Of a stretch of DNA of 49,768 nucleotides, positions 5,311 to 34,458 are shown one piece after another; position 1 is the first letter of the stretch, and each line of letters starts with the position of its first letter. Both the position numbers and the translations under genes were made by a program. Source of the stretch: an uncultured Oscillatoriales cyanobacterium (GTDB lineage Bacteria; Cyanobacteriota; Cyanobacteriia; Cyanobacteriales; Microcoleaceae); NCBI GenBank assembly GCA_903893625.1, contig CAITND010000206.1:1-49768 (forward strand), written 5' to 3'. The notes under the pieces were generated by a model. That model was not told the origin of the DNA and did not search any database. It saw only the letters and a program-made list of their open reading frames with translations.

Positions 5311-5811
5311 ATGGCTAAAATACTTCGACTAGAACCAATTGCCGAAGAAATGGCAGTTAAGACTAATTCTAATTTGCTTTCGGCATTAATGACCAAGGAA
5401 CTTCACGTCCTGAAAGAATGTGGGGGGCGAGGAATGTGTGCAACCTGCCATGTTTTTATTAAAGATGGCATGGATGGTTTATCTAAAGTTAGCCGTCGTG
5501 AACAAAGAACATTAGAAGTGATCACAACAGCCAAACCCAATTCCCGTTTAGCTTGTCAAGCTCACGTTATTGGGGAAGGAATTATTGTTGAATTACCTTC
5601 TGGGATGTATATTGATGCCATTGAAGATATAGAATCGTTAGTTGGGCGACGAGCAGAACAAGAACTTCTGCATCCGATTACAGGGCAAGTTGTGGTGGAA
5701 TCTGGAAAATTGATTACTCGCTCAATTCTGAGTCAGTTGAAAGAAACTCGTGTGCAAGTGGGCGAATATCTAGCTCGAACTCGTAACGCTAAAGATGACG
5801 GGAATCAGTAA
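5311..5811 (+). CDS. [2Fe-2S] ferredoxin with adrenodoxin-type cysteine spacing
   Basis: This 166-aa electron carrier has four cluster ligands at C37, C43, C46 and C82, a C-X5-C-X2-C-X35-C pattern. That is the adrenodoxin/Isc-Fdx spacing, not the C-X4-C-X2-C-X29-C of photosynthetic PetF. A C-terminal extension of about 65 residues past the ferredoxin fold has no cysteine and is of unknown role. It lies in the Pap-like cluster beside V4R and phycobiliprotein-fold genes, and a ferredoxin (slr0148) is a core member of the Synechocystis cluster. The last codons and the TAA stop fall inside the heptameric repeat that follows, so the C-terminus may vary between strains. Confidence 0.92.
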   Translation: MAKILRLEPIAEEMAVKTNSNLLSALMTKELHVLKECGGRGMCATCHVFIKDGMDGLSKVSRREQRTLEVITTAKPNSRLACQAHVIGEGIIVELPSGMYIDAIEDIESLVGRRAEQELLHPITGQVVVESGKLITRSILSQLKETRVQVGEYLARTRNAKDDGNQ

Positions 5812-5934
5812 TCAGTAATCAGTCATCAGTCATCAGTCATCAGTTATGAGCCAGTTTACAGTTCTTTTAATCAACAAAATCTTGGTTTTATCTGTTTCAC
5901 TGATAACTGATAACTGATAACTGATAACTGATTA
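5802..5934 (+). repeat. Inverted pair of heptameric short tandem repeats
   Basis: Heptamers of the type ATCAGTC/ATCAGTA are repeated at 5802-5846, and the complementary heptamer TGATAAC is repeated about four times at 5900-5934. The two arrays are roughly complementary, so the transcript could fold into a long hairpin after the ferredoxin gene. This is the short tandem repeat class common in filamentous cyanobacteria. Confidence 0.85.
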
Positions 5935-5965
5935 TATTGGTGACATTTAGACCTTGGTAATACTT

Positions 5966-6448
5966 ATGTTGACTCAGTTACAACGTTTGAGTGTTGAAGT
6001 CGATGGTCGTTATGCAACACCGGAAGAATTAGACTTTTTAAAGTCCTATTTAGAGACGTTAAAATATCGCGTCAGTGCCTATCAAAAAATTAAAAAGAAT
6101 GAATCTGTAATTATTGATCAAATTCAAGACAAACTTCAACAGATGAACCAGGCAATTTTTATCCAGGGTTCTGTTGATTTTACCTCAAAATGGCGTTTAG
6201 ATACCATCAGAGTTTTACGATATTCAGCAATGGCTTTATTAATAGATGATCCTGATTACTTACGGGAACGCTTATTAATTTGGTTTGCAACAATTTTAAA
6301 AGCGTTTAAAGTCCAAAATTTAACTCAATTAACTTATCAAGAGATGTCTGATGTGATTGAAAGCTATTTAACGCCGGAAGAAAATGATTTATTTTTACCT
6401 CTAATTAAACTTGATTTAACCATTTTATCTAAAAAAAGATTTTCATAA
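5966..6448 (+). CDS. Phycobiliprotein-fold (allophycocyanin-like) protein without chromophore cysteine
   Basis: This 160-aa protein, starting at the ATG at 5966, is all-helical. The segment 'LRYSAMALLIDDPDYLRERLL' style around residues 80-100 resembles phycobiliprotein helices with the 'YLRLxTYxxxAGD' pattern. It has no cysteine, so it cannot attach a bilin as phycobiliproteins do. It is clearly paralogous to the 158-aa protein at 8440-8916, with shared 'RY.T.EEL.F.SY.ETL..R' N-terminus and 'RHSAMAMLLND..YL.ER' core. It follows the ferredoxin on the same strand after the repeat. A role as a pigment-free assembly or scaffold protein for photosynthetic complexes is inferred from fold and neighbours. 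Confidence 0.8.
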   Translation: MLTQLQRLSVEVDGRYATPEELDFLKSYLETLKYRVSAYQKIKKNESVIIDQIQDKLQQMNQAIFIQGSVDFTSKWRLDTIRVLRYSAMALLIDDPDYLRERLLIWFATILKAFKVQNLTQLTYQEMSDVIESYLTPEENDLFLPLIKLDLTILSKKRFS

Positions 6449-6464
6449 ACTTCCCCTGCTCTGA

Positions 6465-7625
6465 TCATGTATGAACTTTTCCATTGGGTAATATAGCACC
6501 CTGTAACAGTGCACCCTTAACTTCAGCATTGGCTAAAATAGCCCCTTTTAAATTAGCCCCTCTTAAATCAGCCTTGCTTAAATTGGCTCCCATTAAATTC
6601 GCTTCTGTTAAATTAACATTACCCAGATGAGTATTTCTTAAATCGGCATTAATCAGACAAGCTTTACTCAAGTTACTAGAACTTAAGTTACTAGAACTTA
6701 AGTTCGCATCCATGAGTAATGCCCCTTCCAAATTAGATTCGCTTAAATAAGCCCCTGCTAAATTAATTCCCGTTAATAATTTTTGCCTTAAATCAATTCC
6801 ACCTAAGTCAGCACCACTTAAATTAATCCCACTTAAATGAGCACCATTTAAACACACATTCCTAAGATAAGTTTTACTCAAATTGGCTTTACTCAGATTG
6901 GCTCGACTTAAGTTTGCCTCATTGAGATCCGCTTCTAATAAACTGGCAGAATTGAGAAAAGCATCTGTTAAATCAGCGTGTCTTAAATTTGCTTTTAACA
7001 TTTGGGCTTGACTCAAATCAGCCCCTATCAAATTAGCACCACTTAAATTAGCGCGGACAATTATAGCTTGACTCAAATCTGCTCCTGATAAGTCTACATC
7101 TTTCAAATTAGCTTGCGTTAAATCCGTGTTTTTTAAGATGGCTTGACGGAGATTCGCTTTAATTAAATAGGCTTTGATCAAACAGGCTTGACTCAAAACA
7201 GCTTCTAGGAGAATTGCAGAACTAAAATCAGCACTTTTGAGATTACCATGATTAAGATCGGCCTCTTGCAAATTTGCCCAATTGAGGTGAGCCCCTTCCA
7301 GGTTAACCCGACTCAGGTTAGCCCCGGTTAAAATTGTGCCACTCAGACTGGCTCCACTAAGATTAGCCCCGGTTAAATTGGCTCCGGTTAAATTGGCTTT
7401 ACTCAGGTTAACCAGACTGAGATGGGCTTCGGTTAAGTCAGCATTGCTTAAATCTGCACCAATTAGATGCGGTCGATTTTGAGGTTCTCGAATATTAGCT
7501 AAACCCAGAGTTGGTACCGTATTGGGTCGATAAGAATTGCTACTCAGAATAATACCTCGTAGACTGACGCCTTTAAAATCCCGTTCTCCGTCTGCATATC
7601 GACTCAGCAGTTCAATAGCGTCCAT
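6465..7625 (-). CDS. Pentapeptide-repeat protein
   Basis: Of its 386 residues, nearly all after about residue 55 are tandem A(D/N)Lxx pentapeptides (for example NLSGANLTGANLSGASL), which fold into a right-handed quadrilateral beta-helix. About 60 repeats are present. The first 45 residues (MDAIELLSRYADGERDFKGV) are a non-repeat cap typical of cyanobacterial members. No signal peptide or enzymatic domain is visible. It lies 45 bp downstream of the second V4R gene on the same strand, so it probably shares its transcript, and it converges on the phycobiliprotein-fold gene with a 16-bp gap. The biochemical function of most cyanobacterial members is unknown. Confidence 0.93.
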   Translation of the reverse strand: MDAIELLSRYADGERDFKGVSLRGIILSSNSYRPNTVPTLGLANIREPQNRPHLIGADLSNADLTEAHLSLVNLSKANLTGANLTGANLSGASLSGTILTGANLSRVNLEGAHLNWANLQEADLNHGNLKSADFSSAILLEAVLSQACLIKAYLIKANLRQAILKNTDLTQANLKDVDLSGADLSQAIIVRANLSGANLIGADLSQAQMLKANLRHADLTDAFLNSASLLEADLNEANLSRANLSKANLSKTYLRNVCLNGAHLSGINLSGADLGGIDLRQKLLTGINLAGAYLSESNLEGALLMDANLSSSNLSSSNLSKACLINADLRNTHLGNVNLTEANLMGANLSKADLRGANLKGAILANAEVKGALLQGAILPNGKVHT

Positions 7626-7670
7626 GGGTTTAACCTAAAATAACTCGCCTATCAACGGGGAACTTCTCAA

Positions 7671-8333
7671 TCACGATGTTTCACAGAGTTCCTTAAGAAT
7701 AGTTTCATGATTTTTTCCTTGATCAACTAAGGCTTCTGCGGATTGTAAACGATTACTTAAACCGAGAATAAATCGATTACAATCTGCGCCCATAGATTCA
7801 CAGGAGGTTTGAACACAATGGAGTTCTCGCCCTGTTAATCGACTAAAAAAGGAACTAAAAACTCCAGCTTCCAAAAAACAAACAGGTCGATTCCAGGGAG
7901 GGGCAACACTGGCAAAGGGGGAATTTTTTGTAATTATAATTAGGAATCCAGCGTTAACATACTGGGGATCAAAATCAAATGTTCCCCAACCATGAGTTTT
8001 CCAACATTGTTGTAAACACTGGATTAATTCAATCATTTCCATTTGAGCTACAGCTTTGTCATAATATTCACTAATTTCTTCACAAAAACGGACATAAAAA
8101 TTCTTTCCCCACCAACGACCGCAATTGAATAAGACTAAGCGGGTTGCTTGACCCGTTTCTTGTTCTAACCCGGCATAAATCGCTTGGAGCAGGGTTGAGG
8201 GAAGACCAAGTAGACGCCCACCGAGGCGATTTTCTAGCAAACCTAATTCTAAATCTCCTTTCACATAAGCATTATATGCGAAATAGTTGCCTGGAAGTTG
8301 GGGTTTCGTGAGTAAATTGGTAATTTCAATCAT
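7671..8333 (-). CDS. V4R (4-vinyl reductase) domain protein, slr0147-like
   Basis: This 220-aa soluble protein ends in a V4R domain (about residues 120-195): 'SFFSRLTGRELHCVQTSC' followed by 'SMGADCNRFILG', with the conserved cysteines expected for small-molecule or metal binding. V4R domains occur in bacteriochlorophyll 4-vinyl reductase BchJ and are thought to bind tetrapyrroles or hydrocarbons. It is a paralogue of the protein at 11812-12513. Two V4R genes flanking small and phycobiliprotein-like genes match slr0144 and slr0147 of the Pap operon, which promotes photosystem II assembly. A role in handling chlorophyll intermediates during assembly is inferred, not shown. Confidence 0.88.
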   Translation of the reverse strand: MIEITNLLTKPQLPGNYFAYNAYVKGDLELGLLENRLGGRLLGLPSTLLQAIYAGLEQETGQATRLVLFNCGRWWGKNFYVRFCEEISEYYDKAVAQMEMIELIQCLQQCWKTHGWGTFDFDPQYVNAGFLIIITKNSPFASVAPPWNRPVCFLEAGVFSSFFSRLTGRELHCVQTSCESMGADCNRFILGLSNRLQSAEALVDQGKNHETILKELCETS

Positions 8334-8439
8334 AATTTAGACAGGTTGTATTGACGGTTGATAGTTAACCGTTAACGGTTGATGAACAAAGAGGTTAATT
8401 GTGAACAATGGCTCCTGAAAAAGCACTAATTATTACCGT

Positions 8440-8916
8440 TCAAGCTTCTGTGTTCGGTGGCTCTAGCAATTGAGTTTTAACCTGTTCCAAGAAGGGTTGT
8501 AAGAAAATCAGTGCTTTTGGCGAGAGTAATTCATTTAAACGCGCATTGAGCAATTGATAAACTTGAGTATCAATTACTTGGCTATTATGGGCTTGAACTA
8601 AACCCGATAACCAATCAATGACTCGTTCCTGAAGGTATTTGGAATCATTCAATAACATCGCCATCGCACTATGGCGAAAAATCAGAATCCATTGTTGTAG
8701 AATCTGTTCTAAGCGTTCTTGCTTTTCTTGAGGAAATATGGTTTGAATTTGATCCGCAATCGGCTGAAATATAACAATTTCCCGATCCCGAAGAAATTCA
8801 TAAATTTTTAATCGTTGGGCTAAAGTCTCTGCATAGCTTTTAAAACCCAGCAATTCTTCAGTTTGAAGATAGCGATTTTCCGCTTGAACTAATAATTCAT
8901 TTAATTCGGCTTGCAT
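8440..8916 (-). CDS. Phycobiliprotein-fold protein without cysteines, paralogue of the 5966-6448 protein
   Basis: This 158-aa all-helical protein has the same architecture as its paralogue across the cluster: 'RYLQTEELLGFKSYAETLAQR' style N-terminal helices, then 'ILIFRHSAMAMLLNDSKYLQERVIDWL' style core split over residues 75-105. There is no cysteine, so no bilin attachment site. It lies between the split small gene and the second V4R gene on the minus strand, where slr0146 sits in the Synechocystis cluster. Having two such paralogues on opposite arms suggests a duplication that accompanied or preceded an inversion of half the cluster. Function is unknown. Confidence 0.8.
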   Translation of the reverse strand: MQAELNELLVQAENRYLQTEELLGFKSYAETLAQRLKIYEFLRDREIVIFQPIADQIQTIFPQEKQERLEQILQQWILIFRHSAMAMLLNDSKYLQERVIDWLSGLVQAHNSQVIDTQVYQLLNARLNELLSPKALIFLQPFLEQVKTQLLEPPNTEA

Positions 8917-8937
8917 AGAAATTCAAGATGTTCATGA

Positions 8938-9080
8938 AACAGTAAACAGTAATCAGTAAACAGTAATCAGTAAACAGTAATCAGTAATCAGTTTTGGGTT
9001 TTGTAGTGTTAGTGTCCTTGCTGGCTAACAATTGACAATTGACAACTACTAACTATTAATTAATTACTGATTACTGTTGG
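8938..9080. repeat. Heptameric tandem repeats between Pap-like genes
   Basis: An array of CAGTAATCAGTAAA-type units (8938-8992) is followed by TTGACAATTGACAA and TAATTACTGATTACTG tracts (9028-9077), the latter being the complement of the first. The 177-bp gap between the split small gene and the 158-aa gene consists mostly of this material. I see no promoter or gene in it. Confidence 0.8.
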
Positions 9081-9093
9081 CTGATTCGGTGAT

Positions 9094-9312
9094 TTAAAAT
9101 AAACCCATTAGATCATCGATGGTGACATCGAGTTCATTCGAGTTATCGGACGCAGAAGAAGCAGAAATAACAGGCATAACTCCCACTTGGGGAACTCCTT
9201 CCCAATCAATATTTTGAAAAAAATCGGCGACGGATAGAGTTAAATTCACCTTTGAGGGAGTCGGATGACCATTTTGCACCCGTGAGGGTATACCCAACCA
9301 ATTGAGATTACT
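9094..9312 (-). CDS. Small protein of the Pap-like cluster, 3' exon (gene split by group II intron)
   Basis: This is the second exon of an 88-aa protein whose first 16 codons are at 11768-11815. Removing the intron joins the frame without error: 'SVQDFF' from exon 1 continues as 'SNLNWLGIP' from exon 2. The result is one copy of a motif that occurs again downstream in the same protein as 'SVADFFQNIDWEGVP'. That internal match is strong evidence the junction is right. The C-terminus 'VTIDDLMGLF' is acidic/hydrophobic and looks like a docking tail. I do not know its function; by position it corresponds to slr0145 of Synechocystis. Without splicing only the 16-codon stub plus a few intron codons would be made. 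Confidence 0.85.
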   Translation of the reverse strand, partial: SNLNWLGIPSRVQNGHPTPSKVNLTLSVADFFQNIDWEGVPQVGVMPVISASSASDNSNELDVTIDDLMGLF

Positions 9313-9313
9313 G

Positions 9314-11161
9314 TTAGAGTCGATTAGGAGGTTGCCCTCCTAACCTCTCCTTCAGAACCGTGCGTGAGACTTTCACCTCACACGGCTCCTTGATAATTCC
9401 ATCCTTGTTATGGATACGATTCAAAACGGTTTTATTATCGTGATTCTTGATTAAAGAACCATCATTTGCCGTCTTTGTGTCGTGACAATGTTTGTGTAGA
9501 AGTTGAAGGTTATCATAGATGTCTTTTCCACCTAATGATGTTGGTTTAATATGGTCAACTTCTACACTGTCTGTAATTGTGAAATACAGACCACATTGAG
9601 GACAAATACCCTTTTGCTTTTTGATAAGTGTTGCCACTCTTTTTGGAGTTTCAGGATATTCGCCTCGTCGTTTACTCCAATAAGTCCAGTCTCCATTAAA
9701 CGGACTAGCTTCACCTTTAACCTTTGTATGCCTTACGATTAGTGTACTGGCATGGGTGACTAATTCTAATCCGTTTTCTGTACTGAAACACCAATTTTTG
9801 TCGCCTACTGTTCTCCAGTATTTGTCTTTATTGATGTTCCCTTTTCCCCTCTTTTTTGCCCAGGCTCTTAACTTGTCATACGTTAGTTTATCAACCTTTG
9901 AGAAGATTTCTTTACTAACCACTGTTGAATAATAGTTTGACCAGCCTCTTATAATTGGGTTTAGCTTGCTTATTAAAGCAGCTTGCGAGGCGTTCTTATG
10001 GGTGTCTATTACTTCAGCTATTTTGACGAGATGAGTCTTAATTTTGGTTTTTGAGGGTGTGATTAATGTACTAAAACCTAGTGGAATTCCTTTTGTGTTA
10101 TTAGCACATCTGTATTTTCCTGTTTTGTGCTGTTGTATATGGAATCCTAAAAATTCAAACCCTACCTTTCCGTCAATTTCATTGAGGGTGTGGGTTATTT
10201 TTGTTTTACTTGGTTTTAATTCCAATCCCAAATCATTTAACCATTTGATAATTATCTCTTGACACTTTTTGACAACGTTTAAATCCTCGTGGATTATTAC
10301 AAAGTCATCAGCGTATCGGATTAAACTAAGTGACCAACGGTTATCCCGTTTTCTTCCTTTTAGAGTTTCTGCATATTGCATGACTCTTTCTTCCATACCA
10401 TGTAGGGCAATATTCGCAAGTAAGGGTGAAATTACCCCTCCTTGTGGTGTACCATCATTGGTAGGAAAGAGTTCTTTTCCGACGCAGTACCCTGCCTTAA
10501 GCCATGTTTTAATCAGACGGCTTAATGTAGGGTATGTGTGTATTTTGGAGAGTAACGCTTTATGGTCTATGCGGTCAAAGCATTTTGAGATATCAGCATC
10601 AAGCACATATTTGGCTTTTAAGCTAACACTGTTAAATATTGCTTCAATTGCATCGTGACAGGAACGTCCTGGTCTGAAACCATAACTGTTAGGCTCGAAT
10701 TTAGCCTCCCATTCTGGTTCTAACGCTAGTTTAACTAACGCTTGTAGTGCGCGGTCGTCCCCCCCAACCCCCCGTGCACGGGGGGCAGGGGGGGTGGGTA
10801 TTCCTAATGAACGGGTTTCTGTTGAACCAGGTTTAGGTATGTCAACTCTACGAGTTGGTTTTACTTTATTGGTTAACTTTAATCGTCCTACAAGGTTCAT
10901 ACGTTGCTTCGGTGTTAGAGATTTAATTCCATCCACTCCCGCCGTATTTTTGCCTTGGTTGTCCTGTGTTACCTTACGAACCGCGATACATTTTGCACTC
11001 CAGGAATTAATCAGGGTCTTCTGAAGTTTACGAACTGCTTTAACATCGCCTCGTTCACTCGCTCGAAATATTCGCTTTTGCAACTTGAACGTCAATCTTT
11101 CAGCTTTACGCCAATTGATTTCGCTCCATTCCACCGTCAGATTGTTCTGCGTTTTAGACAT
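9314..11161 (-). CDS. ltrA: Group II intron-encoded reverse transcriptase/maturase with HNH endonuclease
   Basis: From the ATG at 11161 (MSKTQNN) the protein has about 615 residues. In order: RT0-RT7 with 'SYGFRPGRS', 'DADISKCFD' and the catalytic YADD ('IRYADDFVII'); maturase domain X ('LNPIIRGWSNYY'); and a C-terminal HNH zinc nuclease (CPQC, 'VEVDHIKP', 'DNLQLLHKHCHD'). It serves splicing and retrohoming. Two oddities: about 10-12 extra residues (PPAPRARGVGGD) sit between 'GIPT' and 'DRALQ', coded by a GC-rich palindrome; and the reading frame stays open through domains V and VI, its TAA (9314-9316) ending one base before the 3' splice site. The family usually reads GIPTMxDRALQ, so the insert is foreign. 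Confidence 0.95.
   Translation of the reverse strand: MSKTQNNLTVEWSEINWRKAERLTFKLQKRIFRASERGDVKAVRKLQKTLINSWSAKCIAVRKVTQDNQGKNTAGVDGIKSLTPKQRMNLVGRLKLTNKVKPTRRVDIPKPGSTETRSLGIPTPPAPRARGVGGDDRALQALVKLALEPEWEAKFEPNSYGFRPGRSCHDAIEAIFNSVSLKAKYVLDADISKCFDRIDHKALLSKIHTYPTLSRLIKTWLKAGYCVGKELFPTNDGTPQGGVISPLLANIALHGMEERVMQYAETLKGRKRDNRWSLSLIRYADDFVIIHEDLNVVKKCQEIIIKWLNDLGLELKPSKTKITHTLNEIDGKVGFEFLGFHIQQHKTGKYRCANNTKGIPLGFSTLITPSKTKIKTHLVKIAEVIDTHKNASQAALISKLNPIIRGWSNYYSTVVSKEIFSKVDKLTYDKLRAWAKKRGKGNINKDKYWRTVGDKNWCFSTENGLELVTHASTLIVRHTKVKGEASPFNGDWTYWSKRRGEYPETPKRVATLIKKQKGICPQCGLYFTITDSVEVDHIKPTSLGGKDIYDNLQLLHKHCHDTKTANDGSLIKNHDNKTVLNRIHNKDGIIKEPCEVKVSRTVLKERLGGQPPNRL
9355..9388 (-). ncRNA. Group II intron catalytic domain V
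   Basis: A 34-nt hairpin read on the minus strand from GAGCCGTGTG to GCACGGTTC, with the GUGAAAG-type internal loop and terminal loop typical of domain V. It is the most conserved part of the ribozyme and marks the intron as intact at its 3' end. Confidence 0.92.
10759..10794. repeat. 36-nt GC-rich palindrome inserted in frame in the intron RT gene
   Basis: The structure is C7-AA-C6-GTGCAC-G6-CA-G7, a near-perfect palindrome with an 18-bp perfect core (10768-10785). Its length is exactly 12 codons. It is wholly unlike the surrounding AT-rich sequence and looks like a small mobile or REP-like palindrome that landed in a permissive loop of the reverse transcriptase between 'GIPT' and 'DRALQ'. 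Confidence 0.85.
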
Positions 11162-11767
11162 ATAAATTGCTACTTGTTCTATTTCTTTGGAATTACCGGG
11201 CATCTGTCAGCATATCTTTGCCATTACAGCAAAGCATTCGCTTTTGACACCATCCCCTCCCTACATATCATTCGTTAGCTACTTACTGGGTTTTCGACCT
11301 TTTCCAGAGATATATAGGGATTACTTCGTTCCGATTACACATTGATTGAAGTCTTTAGCGTGATGCTATCCACCGGGTTTATTGGGCGGTGCTGATAAGT
11401 CGGTTTTTCATCCGCTTATGCCCTATCCTTACCTTTTGGCTTGGTGTTAATCAAGTTTTATCTTGATTTAGCCATTACACCATTGCAAGTCACGATGGTT
11501 CAGACACATCTTTGCTTTCGCTACGCATGGACTTCTTGCTCGATAGTTACCAGATTTGGCTTCCAGTAGTTCTACCTTTTAACCCCGCTTTAGTCTGTTA
11601 GTTGCTACCCAAGCAAACTAGGGGTTATGCTTTCACCTTAGCACTTGAGGGATGGGACTTAACTCACGGAGTTTCACCCATAAATGTAATCAGTTATCAC
11701 CAGTCTTAATAACTGGGTTAACCGTCCCATAAGCCCTTCAGCTTATTTTAGGTTAAACGAATCGCAC

Positions 11768-11815
11768 GAAAAAGTCTTGAACGGACTCACTCAGCCAAGG
11801 CTTTTGATTGTTCAT
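11768..11815 (-). CDS. Small protein of the Pap-like cluster, 5' exon (16 codons)
   Basis: The first exon encodes MNNQKPWLSESVQDFF. Its ATG overlaps the stop of the upstream V4R gene (ATGA at 11812-11815), so it is translationally coupled to V4R. It ends at ...CTTTTTC, immediately before the intron's GTGCGA. See the 3' exon at 9094-9312 for the rest of the protein. Confidence 0.85.
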
Positions 11816-12513
11816 CGCAACACAACTCCATCTTGTAATTTCCGTTGAATGTCTCTAGCTGTTGCACCTTCATTTAACCAGAAACCCGCAGCATCGATGC
11901 GATCGGGATTTCCTAAAAGAAATTTACAATAGGTTTCTCCCATCGAATAACATTGCAGTTCAATACAACTTAGACTTTTCTTGACCAAATTGCTAAAAAA
12001 TCCGGCAAATAATCCCGCATAAATATGACAAACGGGTTTTCCCACATCTCCGAGACTTCGAGCAACAGCCGAATCAAATAAATTAATAAAGATACAGCCG
12101 TGTTTGCGATCGCTCATGTCTACTTCCCAACGTCCCCAACCTTGGGAGGTAAAAGGCCACCACCAGGTTTCTAATAAAAACATCAGGTTAGACTGTCGAA
12201 TACTTTGACCAAACTCGGCTTCATACCACTGTTGGAAAAACGCGGCATCCTTAACGCCCCATTCTTTACCAATTGTGTACATAATCACGGATGAGGCATT
12301 GCCAACTTCTTCTTCTAATCCCTCAACCAAACCAATAATAAAATCTTCACTGGTAAAGATATTTCGCATTTGATTCCAGTCTGTCACCGTGCCCATTGAC
12401 GAGTCAAAGCTGAAAAAATCTTGAAATCGATAATGATTATGGGCTTTAGGATTGGTTTGTTTTAGTTTAGATTGATTCTGAATAAGATTTTGGGTTGCGG
12501 TGGTTAAGACCAT
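11812..12513 (-). CDS. V4R (4-vinyl reductase) domain protein, slr0144-like
   Basis: This protein of about 233 residues has a C-terminal V4R domain ('AGLFAGFFSNLVKKSLSCIE', then 'QCYSMGETYCKFLLGNP'). It is a paralogue of the 7671-8333 protein and the first gene of the minus arm of the Pap-like cluster. I chose the ATG at 12513 (MVLTTATQN) over the ATG at 12522 because the AAAGGAG element at about 12525-12531 is too close to the first ATG but about 10 bases from the second. The stop overlaps the start of the intron-split gene. The intron downstream could affect expression of the rest of the arm unless it splices or other promoters exist. Confidence 0.88.
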   Translation of the reverse strand: MVLTTATQNLIQNQSKLKQTNPKAHNHYRFQDFFSFDSSMGTVTDWNQMRNIFTSEDFIIGLVEGLEEEVGNASSVIMYTIGKEWGVKDAAFFQQWYEAEFGQSIRQSNLMFLLETWWWPFTSQGWGRWEVDMSDRKHGCIFINLFDSAVARSLGDVGKPVCHIYAGLFAGFFSNLVKKSLSCIELQCYSMGETYCKFLLGNPDRIDAAGFWLNEGATARDIQRKLQDGVVLR

Positions 12514-12531
12514 CGGCTGCATACTCCTTTT

Positions 12532-12769
12532 TGATCAACAAGGTTTAAAATCAAGTTCAAATTTCTCTCCTCTGGACTGACATTAAGTATTTTTCAGACT
12601 TATAGATGTTCACCGGGAATTGAATCTGCCTGTCTGGTTCAGTCTACCCAGGTTGTCGGCAAGTTTAACGGATGCACCCCTGTATTTAATTTAACAAGAT
12701 CGGAGCCAGAAGTCCCAGATGATTAGGAACATTGGTGTTGGACTTGTCAAGAGCGGATGCGGGGAATGA
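12532..12769. other. Intergenic region upstream of the V4R arm
   Basis: No ORF, tRNA or repeat array is seen. It should hold the promoter for the minus arm of the Pap-like cluster, but I could not identify convincing -35/-10 boxes. Its right end adjoins the TnpB element. Confidence 0.4.
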
Positions 12770-12835
12770 ATGGCGGGACATTACAAACACAATTTACCAT
12801 GCAGATGCTATAGTGGTAAACAGGAGGTGAGACCA

Positions 12836-14086
12836 GTGAAACATCAAGCAGTCAAAGTCAGAATCTACCCCAGTGATCAGCAGAAACAGGTGTTATCCCA
12901 ACACTTCGGATGCTCTCGCTGGTGGTGGAATTTTGCCCTGAATCTTTGCATTGAAACCTACAAAGCCACAGGTAAAGGATTGACTCGCGCTGCGTTGAAT
13001 ACTTATCTCCCTCAACTCAAGAAGAATCAAGAAACTGAATGGTTAAAAGATTGTTATTCTCAAGTCCTCCAGTCAACAACTTTGAATTTGGTAACCGCTT
13101 ATAAAAACTTCTTTGAAGGTCAGGCCAGATATCCCCGATTCAAATCCAAGAAGAATAAGCAATCCATTCAATTCCCTCAAAATGTTAAGGTAACAGACAA
13201 GGGTGAGTTAAGCTTCCCTGGAAAAGTCGGTGTGATTAAATCAAACATTCACAGACCCATCGAAGGGAAAATAAAAACGGTCACCATCTCAATGAACCCA
13301 TCGGGGAAATACTTTGCTTCTATCTTAACCGAAATCGAAGGAGATTACCCTAAGAAATCAGACAAAGGAAAAGTTGCCGGAGTTGATTGGGGAATTCAGG
13401 AATTTGCTATCGTTCACGATGGCAAGAGAACCTCTAAGTTTGAAAACCCCAAACATTTCCAAAAACATCAGAAAAATTTAGCCAGAAAACAAGCTAAGTT
13501 AGCCAGAAAACAAAAAGGCTCTCATTCAAGAAATCGAGCGCAAAAATTAGTCGCTAGGGTTCATGAACGATTATCAAATGCTCGTCAAGACTACTTACAT
13601 AAGCTATCGAGAAAGCTAGTTGACGATAATCAAGTCATCGTAGTCGAAAACCTCAATATTAAGGGCATGGTTCGGAATCATAAACTAGCAAAAGTCATCT
13701 CTGATGGGGGATGGGGAATATTTGTCAATTTCCTTTCTTATAAGCTGGAAAAAGAAGGTAAGATTTTAGTCGAAATTGACCGATTCTTCCCCTGTTCAAA
13801 AATCTGCTCTAATTGTCATTATCAAATCGGTGAGATGCCACGGTCAGTTCGAGATTGGACTTGTCCGAATTGTGGAACTGATCACGATCGAGATGAAAAC
13901 GCTGCTATCAATATTAGAGCAGAAGGAATCAGAGTCCTGAGCGTAACGAAGGATCTGGTCTTGGGAACCAGGACTGCTGCTGATGGAGGGGATATAAGTC
14001 CTAAACACGGGCGTAAGTCTATGTTGAGGCAGTCCCCAGTGAAATCAGAAGCCCACACTATTAGCGATAGCTTTGGTGTTGGGTAG
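12836..14086 (+). CDS. tnpB: TnpB RNA-guided nuclease, IS200/IS605 family
   Basis: From the GTG at 12836 (preceded by AGGAGGTGA) the protein has 416 residues. It starts VKHQAVKVRIYPSDQQ, contains the N-terminal helix-turn-helix ('FGCSRWWWNFALNLCIETY') and a RuvC-like nuclease with all three acidic residues: D in 'VAGVDWGIQ', E in 'VVENLNIKGM', and D in 'HDRDENAAINI'. Between the last two lies the zinc finger CSKICSNCHY ... CPNCG. The upstream in-frame ATG at 12770 would put the left-end hairpin inside the gene and is unlikely to be used. All active-site residues being present suggests a functional TnpB. Its stop is embedded in the right-end hairpin. Confidence 0.95.
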   Translation: MKHQAVKVRIYPSDQQKQVLSQHFGCSRWWWNFALNLCIETYKATGKGLTRAALNTYLPQLKKNQETEWLKDCYSQVLQSTTLNLVTAYKNFFEGQARYPRFKSKKNKQSIQFPQNVKVTDKGELSFPGKVGVIKSNIHRPIEGKIKTVTISMNPSGKYFASILTEIEGDYPKKSDKGKVAGVDWGIQEFAIVHDGKRTSKFENPKHFQKHQKNLARKQAKLARKQKGSHSRNRAQKLVARVHERLSNARQDYLHKLSRKLVDDNQVIVVENLNIKGMVRNHKLAKVISDGGWGIFVNFLSYKLEKEGKILVEIDRFFPCSKICSNCHYQIGEMPRSVRDWTCPNCGTDHDRDENAAINIRAEGIRVLSVTKDLVLGTRTAADGGDISPKHGRKSMLRQSPVKSEAHTISDSFGVG

Positions 14087-31792: not shown

Positions 31793-32239
31793 ATGCGAAC
31801 ATCAGAAGATTGGGAATGGTTAGCAGCGAGTTCTGAATATTTAGCGGCGATCGCAGTTCAAGAGTTATTAGAGGAGCAAAAATTAATGGAAGCCGGAGAA
31901 GGGTTAGCGGTTTTAATTGAATCTATGGGAAAATCCAAGAAATTAGCCTTAAAAAGTCAATTAACCCGGTTAATGATGCACATTATTAAATGGAAATGTC
32001 AACCGGAAAAACGTACTCCCAGTTGGGAAACTACTATTATTTCCGCCAGAGATGAAATTGCAGATATTCAAGAGGAAGTTCCTAGTTTAAATCGAAATTA
32101 CCTAGAATCAATTTGGGAAACTTCTTTTAAAAAAGCAATCAGACAAGCGGAAAGTGAAATGGGAAAGAGATGTCAATTAATGGCTTTATCTTGGCAAGAG
32201 GTATTCGAGGAAGAATATACTTTATTTGATGATAATTAA
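31793..32239 (+). CDS. DUF29 family protein, copy 1 of 3
   Basis: A 148-aa soluble helical protein of the DUF29 family, common and often multicopy in cyanobacteria, function unknown. Typical features are 'LEEQKLMEAGEGLAVLIESMG', the central 'SQLTRLMMHIIKWKCQPEKR' segment and a Trp-containing 'SWETTIISAR'. About 80 N-terminal residues are almost identical to copy 2, while the C-terminal half differs much more. Fourteen bases separate it from copy 2. It probably heads a three-gene operon. Confidence 0.9.
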   Translation: MRTSEDWEWLAASSEYLAAIAVQELLEEQKLMEAGEGLAVLIESMGKSKKLALKSQLTRLMMHIIKWKCQPEKRTPSWETTIISARDEIADIQEEVPSLNRNYLESIWETSFKKAIRQAESEMGKRCQLMALSWQEVFEEEYTLFDDN

Positions 32240-32253
32240 ACTCAGGAGTTATT

Positions 32254-32700
32254 ATGAAAACGGCAGAAAATTGGGAATGGTTAGCTGCGAGTTCTGAATA
32301 TTTAGCCGCGATCGCAGTTCAAGAGTTATTAGAGGAGCAAAAATTAATGGAAGCAGGAGAAGGGTTAGCGGTTTTAATTGAATCTATGGGAAAATCCAAG
32401 AAATTAGCCTTAAAAAGTCAATTAACCCGGTTAATGATGCAGATTATTAAATGGAAATGTCAACCGGAAAAACGCAGTGGGAGTTGGGCTGTTAGCATTC
32501 GTTCAGCCCGTCAAGAAATTGCTGATATTCAAGAAGAAGTTCCCAGTTTAAATCGAAATTTTATTGAGTCAATTTGGGAACAATGTTTTCAACGATCAAT
32601 TAAAGATGCTGAGGATGAAATGGGTAAAAAGTGTTCATTAATTTCTTTATCTTGGCAAGAGGTATTTGAAGACGAATATAGTTTATTTGATTATAATTAA
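32254..32700 (+). CDS. DUF29 family protein, copy 2 of 3
   Basis: A 148-aa paralogue of the previous gene, preceded by CAGGAG. Residues 7-75 match copy 1 with about one change, and the DNA is likewise nearly identical there. After 'QPEKR' the two diverge (SGSWAVSIRSARQE against TPSWETTIISARDE), then converge again at the 'LSWQEVFE' C-terminus. That pattern suggests partial gene conversion. The function of DUF29 is unknown. Confidence 0.9.
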   Translation: MKTAENWEWLAASSEYLAAIAVQELLEEQKLMEAGEGLAVLIESMGKSKKLALKSQLTRLMMQIIKWKCQPEKRSGSWAVSIRSARQEIADIQEEVPSLNRNFIESIWEQCFQRSIKDAEDEMGKKCSLISLSWQEVFEDEYSLFDYN

Positions 32701-32713
32701 GGAGAAGGGGTTT

Positions 32714-33163
32714 ATGTCAACTCAAATGGATTGGCAAGATCTAGCCATGAGTTCTCATTATCTGACGGCATTAGAAGTTAAGAACTGTTTAAAACAGGGA
32801 AATATTATGGAAGCTACGATAGGTTTAGAGGCGTTAATTGAAGCAATGGGACGATCTGATAAACGAGCGTTAAGAAGTCAGTTAATTCGGTTAATGGCTG
32901 ATGTTATTAAGTGGAAATGTCAACCAAAAAAACGGACTTCTAGTTGGTCAACTACAATTTTATCAGCGCGGAATGAAATTGAAGCAATTCAGGAAGATAC
33001 ACCCAGTTTGAACCGAAATACTATTGATTCAATTTGGGATAAATGTTTTGAAAAAGCGGTCAAAGAAGCTGAAACAGAAATGAATCAAAAATGCTCATTA
33101 ATCTCTTTATCTTGGCAAGAAGTATTTGAAGAAAAATACACTGTCGAACCTAGAAACGAGTAG
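32714..33163 (+). CDS. DUF29 family protein, copy 3 of 3
   Basis: A 149-aa protein starting at the ATG at 32714 (MSTQMDWQDL) after GGAGAAGGGG; an in-frame ATG upstream overlaps copy 2 and is not likely used. It is more diverged from copies 1 and 2 (for example 'EVKNCLKQGNIMEATIGLEALIEAMG') but keeps the 'SQLIRLMADVIKWKCQPKKR' and 'SLSWQEVFEEKY' blocks. It converges on the Uma2 gene with a 5-bp gap. Confidence 0.9.
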   Translation: MSTQMDWQDLAMSSHYLTALEVKNCLKQGNIMEATIGLEALIEAMGRSDKRALRSQLIRLMADVIKWKCQPKKRTSSWSTTILSARNEIEAIQEDTPSLNRNTIDSIWDKCFEKAVKEAETEMNQKCSLISLSWQEVFEEKYTVEPRNE

Positions 33164-33168
33164 AATTA

Positions 33169-33762
33169 TTACCAAATTTCTGTTAAATCTAATATAAATC
33201 CTGGTAAGACATTTTCACCAGATAAACTCAAAGGTTGTTGTACAATTTCTATATCTTGATTGGGTCGATAAATACTAACGGTCTGATGTTTTCGGTCTAT
33301 TAACCAACCTAAACGCACCCCATTTTCAATATATTCTTGCATTTTCTCTTGGAGCATTTTTAAACTATCGGTTTTAGACCGTAATTCCAAGACAAAATCA
33401 GGAGCTAAAGGGGGAAATCCTTCTTGTTGTTCTAAAGTAAGTTGCTCCCATCGATCTTGACGTATCCAGGCGGCATCAGGAGAACGATTTGCACCCTTTG
33501 GAAGCAAAAATCCTGTAGAGGAATTAAACACTTGACCGAGTTTGGTTTGACGGTTCCATAACCATAATTGTCCTTCAATATCAATATTTTTTTTGCCTGT
33601 AATTCCTCCGGTTGGTGGCATAACAATTAATTCTCCGGTAGCGGTACGTTCTAATTTTAAATCGCGGTTAGCGATCGCAATTTCCATAAATTGTTCAGGA
33701 TTTACGATTAATTGAACCGTTGAGGGAATATTAACAGGTAATGTAGAAGATGATAATCCCAT
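33169..33762 (-). CDS. Uma2 family (DUF820) PD-(D/E)XK nuclease-like protein, copy 1
   Basis: A 197-aa protein. Uma2 is a cyanobacteria-rich family with a restriction-endonuclease-like fold. The core motifs are 'SPDAAWIRQDRW' (Asp) and 'PDFVLELRSKTDSL' (E-L-R-S/K), with 'MQEYIENGVRLGWLIDRKH' behind. The biological role is unproven; it is often present in dozens of copies per genome. It is a tandem paralogue of the next gene, with both N-termini (about 60 residues) and both C-termini nearly identical. Confidence 0.9.
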   Translation of the reverse strand: MGLSSSTLPVNIPSTVQLIVNPEQFMEIAIANRDLKLERTATGELIVMPPTGGITGKKNIDIEGQLWLWNRQTKLGQVFNSSTGFLLPKGANRSPDAAWIRQDRWEQLTLEQQEGFPPLAPDFVLELRSKTDSLKMLQEKMQEYIENGVRLGWLIDRKHQTVSIYRPNQDIEIVQQPLSLSGENVLPGFILDLTEIW

Positions 33763-33828
33763 AGTTTTATCCTTAAACTTTAATTCCTATTATAAACTGC
33801 TATAATCTTGCTGAGAACAAGAGAATTA

Positions 33829-34422
33829 TTACCAAATTTCTGTTAAATCTAATATAAATCCTGGTAAGACATTTTCACCAGATAAACTCAAAGGTTGTTG
33901 TACAATTTCTATATTCTGGTTTTGGCGATAAATCGTAACAGTTTGATGTTTTCGGTCAATTAACCAACCTAAACGTACACCATTTTCTATATATTCTTGC
34001 ATTTTCTCTTGAAGTACATTCAAACTATCAGTTTTAGAGCGTAATTCTAAGACAAAATCAGGAGAAATGGGGGCAAAACTTTGTTGTTGTTCAGGAGTTA
34101 GTTGTTGCCATCGTTGGTGACATATCCAAGCAGCATCAGGAGAACGATCAGCACCATTAGGAAGATGAAACCCTGTGGAAGAATCAAAGGTTTTTCCCAA
34201 TTTAGTTTGATGATTCCATAACCAAAGTTGTCCGTTAATATCTGAATTTTTAGATCCGGTATCACTTCCTGTAGGGGGCATAACAATTAATTCTCCGGTA
34301 GCAGTACGTTCTAACTTTAAATCCCGGTTAGCGATCGCAATTTCCATAAATTGTTCAGGAGTTACGATTAATTGAACCGTTGAAGGAATATTAACAGGTA
34401 ATGTAGAAGATGATAATCCCAT
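33829..34422 (-). CDS. Uma2 family (DUF820) PD-(D/E)XK nuclease-like protein, copy 2
   Basis: A 197-aa protein starting at the ATG at 34422, which lies in the same context (CCCATAGTTTTATCCTTAAAC) as the start of copy 1; the longer in-frame start at 34455 would add MNINFKFKDKT and is less likely. It keeps 'SPDAAWICHQRW' and 'PDFVLELRSKTDSL'. The 3' ends and the start-proximal DNA of the two copies are nearly identical, with most differences in the middle. Confidence 0.9.
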   Translation of the reverse strand: MGLSSSTLPVNIPSTVQLIVTPEQFMEIAIANRDLKLERTATGELIVMPPTGSDTGSKNSDINGQLWLWNHQTKLGKTFDSSTGFHLPNGADRSPDAAWICHQRWQQLTPEQQQSFAPISPDFVLELRSKTDSLNVLQEKMQEYIENGVRLGWLIDRKHQTVTIYRQNQNIEIVQQPLSLSGENVLPGFILDLTEIW

Positions 34423-34458
34423 AGTTTTATCCTTAAACTTAAAGTTTATATTCAAGAA

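Follow-up and report, generated by a model that had tools for sequence, protein, structure and literature searches.

Background

Closest to the gene described here are group II introns of two other cyanobacteria. In Trichodesmium, an oscillatorialean, 17 introns are documented to splice in vivo, many of them in protein-coding genes (PMC4649490). Introns there lie in sense orientation inside conserved genes, and the title of a reference cited in that report places ribonucleotide reductase among the hosts. The group IIB introns of Thermosynechococcus elongatus form families defined by their exon-binding sites (EBS), which differ so as to fit different targets, and mostly occupy complementary sites (PMC2882425). 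Here we describe a stretch of 49,768 nucleotides ("the window": contig CAITND010000206.1 of assembly GCA_903893625.1) from an uncultured Oscillatoriales cyanobacterium of the genus Planktothrix, in which a group II intron splits a small gene belonging to a photosystem-assembly cluster. This is a clear case of a type already known from cyanobacteria; the case itself is new and unusually clean.

The intron differs from the Trichodesmium set, where the best-described case is a twintron and 10 of the 17 spliced introns have no open reading frame (ORF) (PMC4649490). Here there is a single intron with a full-length protein. The outer intron of that twintron (B2) nevertheless starts with GUGCGAUUC, and the window's intron opens with the same nine bases. 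Unlike the T. elongatus introns (PMC2882425), many of the Planktothrix copies sit inside conserved genes. A likeness to chloroplast introns of the ndhA/ndhB type is found in domain 5, which reaches the cut-off of Rfam family RF04357. Organellar introns have often lost their own proteins and their mobility (PMC4424553), whereas the protein frame of the window's intron is open. Two further reports state that group II introns show no preference for conserved sites of host proteins (PMC2814812), and that chloroplast-like (CL) introns occur in most intron-bearing cyanobacterial genomes, with fewer than ten in Planktothrix agardhii_A (PMC8919778).

The split gene and its uninterrupted counterparts

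The gene, its intron and every element within them lie on the minus strand. Exon 1 (11768–11815, 48 nt) holds codons 1–16 of an 88-codon gene, as defined by coordinates, joined translation and alignment with orthologues, and its ATG start codon shares bases with the TGA that ends the V4R-domain gene upstream (ATGA). Exon 2 (9094–9312, 219 nt) holds codons 17–88 and the stop. Between them, in phase 0 between codons 16 and 17, lies an intron of 2455 nt (9313–11767) that begins with GTGCGATTCG and ends with CTCTAAC; it is delimited by Rfam matches, by comparison with other copies and by an empty site in a relative. If the transcript were read unspliced, the exon frame would meet a stop four codons into the intron.

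We searched 40 genomes, the window's own (G000) included, with the joined 88-aa protein, and identified matches at E <= 0.001 in 19. The 19 comprise the window's own genome, where the match is in two pieces, all nine of the other Planktothrix genomes, six of 15 genomes of the family outside the genus, and three of 15 of the order. The gene is split in the window's genome only, that is, in one of the 19 matching genomes and one of the ten of the genus. In the other nine Planktothrix genomes it is unbroken and free of stops, and aligns over residues 1–88, including the 16-residue N-terminus and the motif rebuilt at the junction; the best identity, up to 89%, is found in genome G008. Alignment with intron-free orthologues had been proposed as a check on the gene, and the junction is gapless both in protein (18 orthologues) and in DNA (15), with the start of L038 left open in these alignments.

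The same genome provides the empty site. Window positions 5944–9312 align with contig C50 of G008 at 83013–86327, and positions 11769–12695 align with 86329–87254. A single G008 base, 86328, is left for window base 11768, so the flanks abut with neither gap nor duplication. The intron limits, the three lengths, the 88-aa joined frame and both splice junctions given in the original prediction are thus exact to the base.

That prediction also held that the junction restores a motif nearly repeated downstream. The internal repeat is real and conserved in the aligned orthologues: S11, V12, F15, F16, N20 and W21 of the first unit, and V44, W53 and E54 of the second, are invariant in all 14 aligned sequences. 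A profile built from the 14 sequences finds the host gene in 230 of 388 genomes of the class, which bears out its description as conserved, and its match in the window's genome begins exactly where exon 2 does, at 9312. No domain match was found for the exon 2 part in Pfam or for the joined protein in NCBIfam. In a plasmid collection the joined protein matches two records, both distant and from Acaryochloris. Comparison of the joined gene with its G008 counterpart gives dN 0.055, dS 0.221 and dN/dS 0.25 (NG86), and the gene as a whole is, on these values, under purifying selection.

Intron RNA and encoded protein

The identification as a group II intron holds on every feature that we compared: termini, domains 5 and 6, pairing with the exon, and a protein with reverse transcriptase (RT) and maturase parts. 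The termini GTGCG...AC fit the group II rule (5' GUGYG, 3' AY), and the GTGCGATTCG start and CTCTAAC end are present in all 30 full-length copies from eight genomes of the genus. Domains 5 and 6 (9313–9390) match RF00029 with 63.3 bits (cut-off 40) over the complete model (1–77), ending at the final intron base. The domain 5 hairpin occupies 9351–9391, the extent of its match to RF04357 (54.5 bits, cut-off 53). Domain 6 and the 3' end (9313–9350) form a stem with compensatory changes, and a candidate branch-point A, suggested by its position, is the eighth base from the 3' end (9320). The folding z-score of the two domains is -5.8 relative to shuffled sequences. Across 18 copies, seven of 29 pairs have changed on both sides, with the compensatory changes chiefly in domain 6. 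The intron is probably of subclass IIB/CL, to which the nearest solved relative (entry 6me0) and the GUGCGAUUC start in common with the B2 intron both point.

The intron-encoded protein (IEP; 9314–11203, 629 aa) has RVT_N, RVT_1 (E 1.5e-42), GIIM maturase (1.7e-19) and HNH (1.6e-13) domains by Pfam. It passes the NCBI model for group II RT/maturases, TIGR04416, with 320.1 bits (cut-off 300). Entry 6me0 is the closest solved protein (E 3.8e-100), and we take it to be the maturase of a Thermosynechococcus intron complex. In the eight comparisons run, with eight of the 29 other full-length copies, dN/dS of the IEP was 0.17–0.23, which points to selection on the protein. An extra base at about 9434–9430, near the C-terminus, removes the usual stop; the frame crosses domains 5 and 6, and its TAA stop (9314–9316) falls within the last bases of the intron.

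A palindromic repeat of 36 bp (10759–10794), recognized by comparison of copies, lies in frame in the RT ORF and encodes PPAPRARGVGG. It resembles the Rickettsia palindromic elements. The repeat is also present in the RT gene of four other copies in the same genome (L002, L004, L005 and L007) and absent from L003. The same kind of palindrome occurs four to seven codons earlier in RT genes of G001 and G009 (L049, L052, L065 and L077) and has also entered coxB of G001 (L076). In the window's genome it was found at 25 more places; several of the 20 that were fetched are within long open frames.

Recognition of the exons

Pairing between intron and exon was assessed in 33 copies at 30 distinct sites, using the domain 1 loops at intron positions ~275–285 (EBS2) and ~353–365 (EBS1) and the corresponding intron-binding sites (IBS) of the exons. 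At the window's site, EBS1 (GAAAAA, 11404–11409; defined by comparison of copies and the pairing test) pairs at all six positions with IBS1 (TTTTTC, 11768–11773), the final six bases of exon 1. The EBS2 core CTTG (11486–11489) pairs with the IBS2 core CAAG in exon 1 (11776–11779); these two come from the pairing test, with their exact extent judged by eye. Over all sites the EBS1 pairing score is 296, compared with a permuted mean of 139 (sd 16), and the EBS2 score is 277, compared with 163 (sd 14). In neither case did any of 100,000 permutations do as well. The window's site ranks first of the 30 for EBS1 and second for EBS2. A site's own loop is the best or tied for best at 16 of the 30 sites for EBS1 and at 17 for EBS2. 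Loops that track their own exons in this way are the behaviour of introns that change target while spreading. Another candidate for EBS1, GGAAAAG at intron positions 463–470, was dropped, as comparison of the copies shows that the loop at ~353–365 tracks the exons.

Where two genomes each have an intron at one nrdB site (L048 and L049; L050 and L060), the EBS1 loops of the two copies differ. Thus, loops drift, or copies are replaced, after insertion.

Related introns and their host genes in Planktothrix

Matches to the intron at E <= 1e-100 number 50 and occur in nine of the ten genus genomes, with nine of them in the window's own. We used the 30 full-length copies together with contig-end pieces from G000; copies that are split or partial, in G001, G003, G006, G007 and G009, stand unclassified, and L080 and L082 were left out. 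Every one of the 29 other full-length copies differs from the window's intron by at least 11%. Closer matches are short contig-end pieces (91% over 691 nt and 95% over 147 nt). In the plasmid collection at least 5000 records match the intron, the best among the matches listed being from Planktothrix agardhii (79.4%). Incomplete copies exist: L067 has no YADD motif, and the frames of L061 and L066 are 510 and 549 aa.

The flanks were joined at 30 sites; for four pairs in G000, in which contig ends are joined, the pairing is based on the reading frame. By our reading, 18 sites have an open sense frame across the junction, and one (L002) is in the leader of a GNAT gene. A long frame is found in antisense only at three sites (L003, L053 and L081), and eight sites are without a long frame (L056, L057, L058, L059, L061, L063, L071 and L075). 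By Pfam, the sense hosts are nrdB (ribonucleotide reductase small chain) at four sites, nth, acs, hemE, pdxJ and coxB, together with genes for an NAD epimerase (sqdB by eye), an RlmL-type protein, cas5, a GST and an Ig-like protein. The joined sense frames at L052 and L073 had no Pfam match. The junction of L077, in acs of G001, is seven codons from the acs site of G000. Some of these host genes are generally essential.

Pfam was scanned with the 20 joined frames that run long over the junction (17 sense, three antisense), L077 and the short-frame sites being excluded. A Pfam domain spans the junction in 12 of the sense frames and in one antisense frame (one-sided binomial P = 0.0017). With four of the twelve sense junctions sharing a single gene, the independent evidence is weaker than this value suggests. 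The idea that a conserved gene is an exceptional target finds no support here; sister copies occupy nrdB, hemE and other conserved genes. In the portions of text that it covered, a limited literature search turned up no mention of introns within these host genes, which is weak evidence.

Two contig-end pairings in G000 (L009 with L010, and L014 with L004) were replaced, as the reading frame shows that L009 and L004 together rebuild nrdB; the leftover pair of L014 and L010 was kept out of the EBS test. The nrdB gene of Planktothrix looks mosaic, with group I and group II introns among coding pieces at positions that vary by genome (L083, L085–L086, L090 and L091).

The photosystem-assembly cluster

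Around the split gene, on the same strand, domain matches and gene order identify an upstream V4R-domain gene (11812–12522), a downstream gene with a phycobilisome domain (8440–8916) and a second V4R-domain gene (7671–8333). The order V4R, small gene, phycobilisome-like gene, V4R is kept in 41 of 44 named loci, and the remaining three end at a contig edge. These loci were retrieved with a DNA pattern that runs across the junction and so returns intron-free copies only; no locus of Synechocystis PCC 6803 is among them. An operon slr0144–slr0151/0152, whose products have been called photosystem II assembly proteins (Pap), and the V4R genes Slr0144 and Slr0147 are described in two reports (PMC13326532, PMC4853703). 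With two V4R genes and a phycobilisome-domain gene in fixed order, reading the cluster as Pap-type, as the original prediction did, is well founded. Equating the small gene with slr0145 is guesswork based on its position.

Upstream of the first V4R gene is a TnpB-like gene (12770–14086; IS200/IS605 OrfB type by eye). G008 is shorter by about 1 kb at the corresponding place and has similar stretches dispersed through its genome. A dispersed repeat of ~130 bp (5803–5936), with many partial copies in G008, lies between the Fer2 gene and a phycobilisome-domain gene. Farther away, at 31793–33163 and 33169–34455, are a tandem of three similar small genes (148, 148 and 165 aa) and, beside it, a similar 197/208-aa pair.

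Favoured and alternative explanations

From the comparisons made, we consider it very probable (roughly 0.92) that a mobile group II intron retrohomed into a conserved gene of the cluster and is spliced from the mRNA to give the 88-aa protein. The intron would have entered the small gene through reverse splicing, guided by the fit of EBS1 and EBS2 to the target. One transcript would carry the V4R gene, the small gene and, probably, the genes that follow. The intron RNA would then fold and, with its own maturase assisting, splice in the cell through a lariat presumably branched at the candidate A, joining exon 1 to exon 2 for a normal protein. Behind this reading stand features taken directly from the DNA: the exact boundaries, the empty site, the intact joined frame, the open IEP, domains 5 and 6, and the EBS-IBS matching. 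Sense introns inside conserved and partly essential genes would hardly be tolerable without splicing, which lends it further support.

Several observations weigh against it. A site's own loop is not the best at 14 of 30 sites for EBS1 and at 13 for EBS2, and EBS2-IBS2 pairing at the window's site is limited to the four-base core. The extra base alters the C-terminal end of the IEP, although L079 of G002 has the same base, and the RT region has about a dozen additional in-frame residues, which are also found in other copies. Changes polarised since the split from G008 are three silent and five replacing on the window's branch (four and five on the G008 branch), and the window-branch changes are too few to prove that selection continued after insertion. 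This small number of changes would also suit an intron that splices poorly, with the gene effectively knocked out and exon 2 left as a remnant or translated as a shorter protein from a TTG at 9297, where an ORF of 67 aa does exist. We regard such a loss as unlikely. A protein starting at that TTG would be missing the first SVxDFFxNxxW motif, in which S, V, F, F, N and W never vary among the 14 aligned sequences; EBS1 pairs with the exon at six of six positions; an intron at least 11% distant from the 29 other full-length copies is no fresh copy of any of those; and the joined frame is still open.

The position of the split gene between two V4R genes means that splicing could in principle affect the downstream genes and so act as a regulatory switch for the photosystem-assembly cluster. 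This is quite improbable, given that the gene is split in one of ten genomes of the genus and that the same intron family occupies many unrelated genes, as expected of a mobile element. We give least credence to an assembly artefact in which an intron copy was wrongly joined to these exons. Several other intron copies in this genome do break at contig ends, but both junctions lie within the one 49.8-kb contig, the exons exactly match the orthologues, and none of the 30 EBS1 loops tested fits the window's site better.

Implications

Retrohoming followed by splicing, the explanation that we favour, would make this a clean and testable case of a bacterial gene whose function should require that a mobile ribozyme first be spliced out, with an empty site available in a close relative. 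The genus-wide pattern merits a proper survey. A more tentative possibility, which we hold doubtful at present, is that Planktothrix carries full-length, protein-encoding, still-mobile introns in sense orientation in conserved chromosomal genes to the point where its core metabolism depends on splicing much as in organelles, and where the splicing load could limit expression of the cluster. The genes concerned would be nrdB (at four positions), hemE, pdxJ, nth, acs (at two positions), coxB and the photosystem-assembly gene; for genes such as nrdB, we infer that splicing would be obligatory. One intron family with many conserved hosts and selected-looking proteins offer natural replicates of the shift from selfish element to obligatory resident, the step by which organelle and spliceosomal introns are assumed to have arisen.
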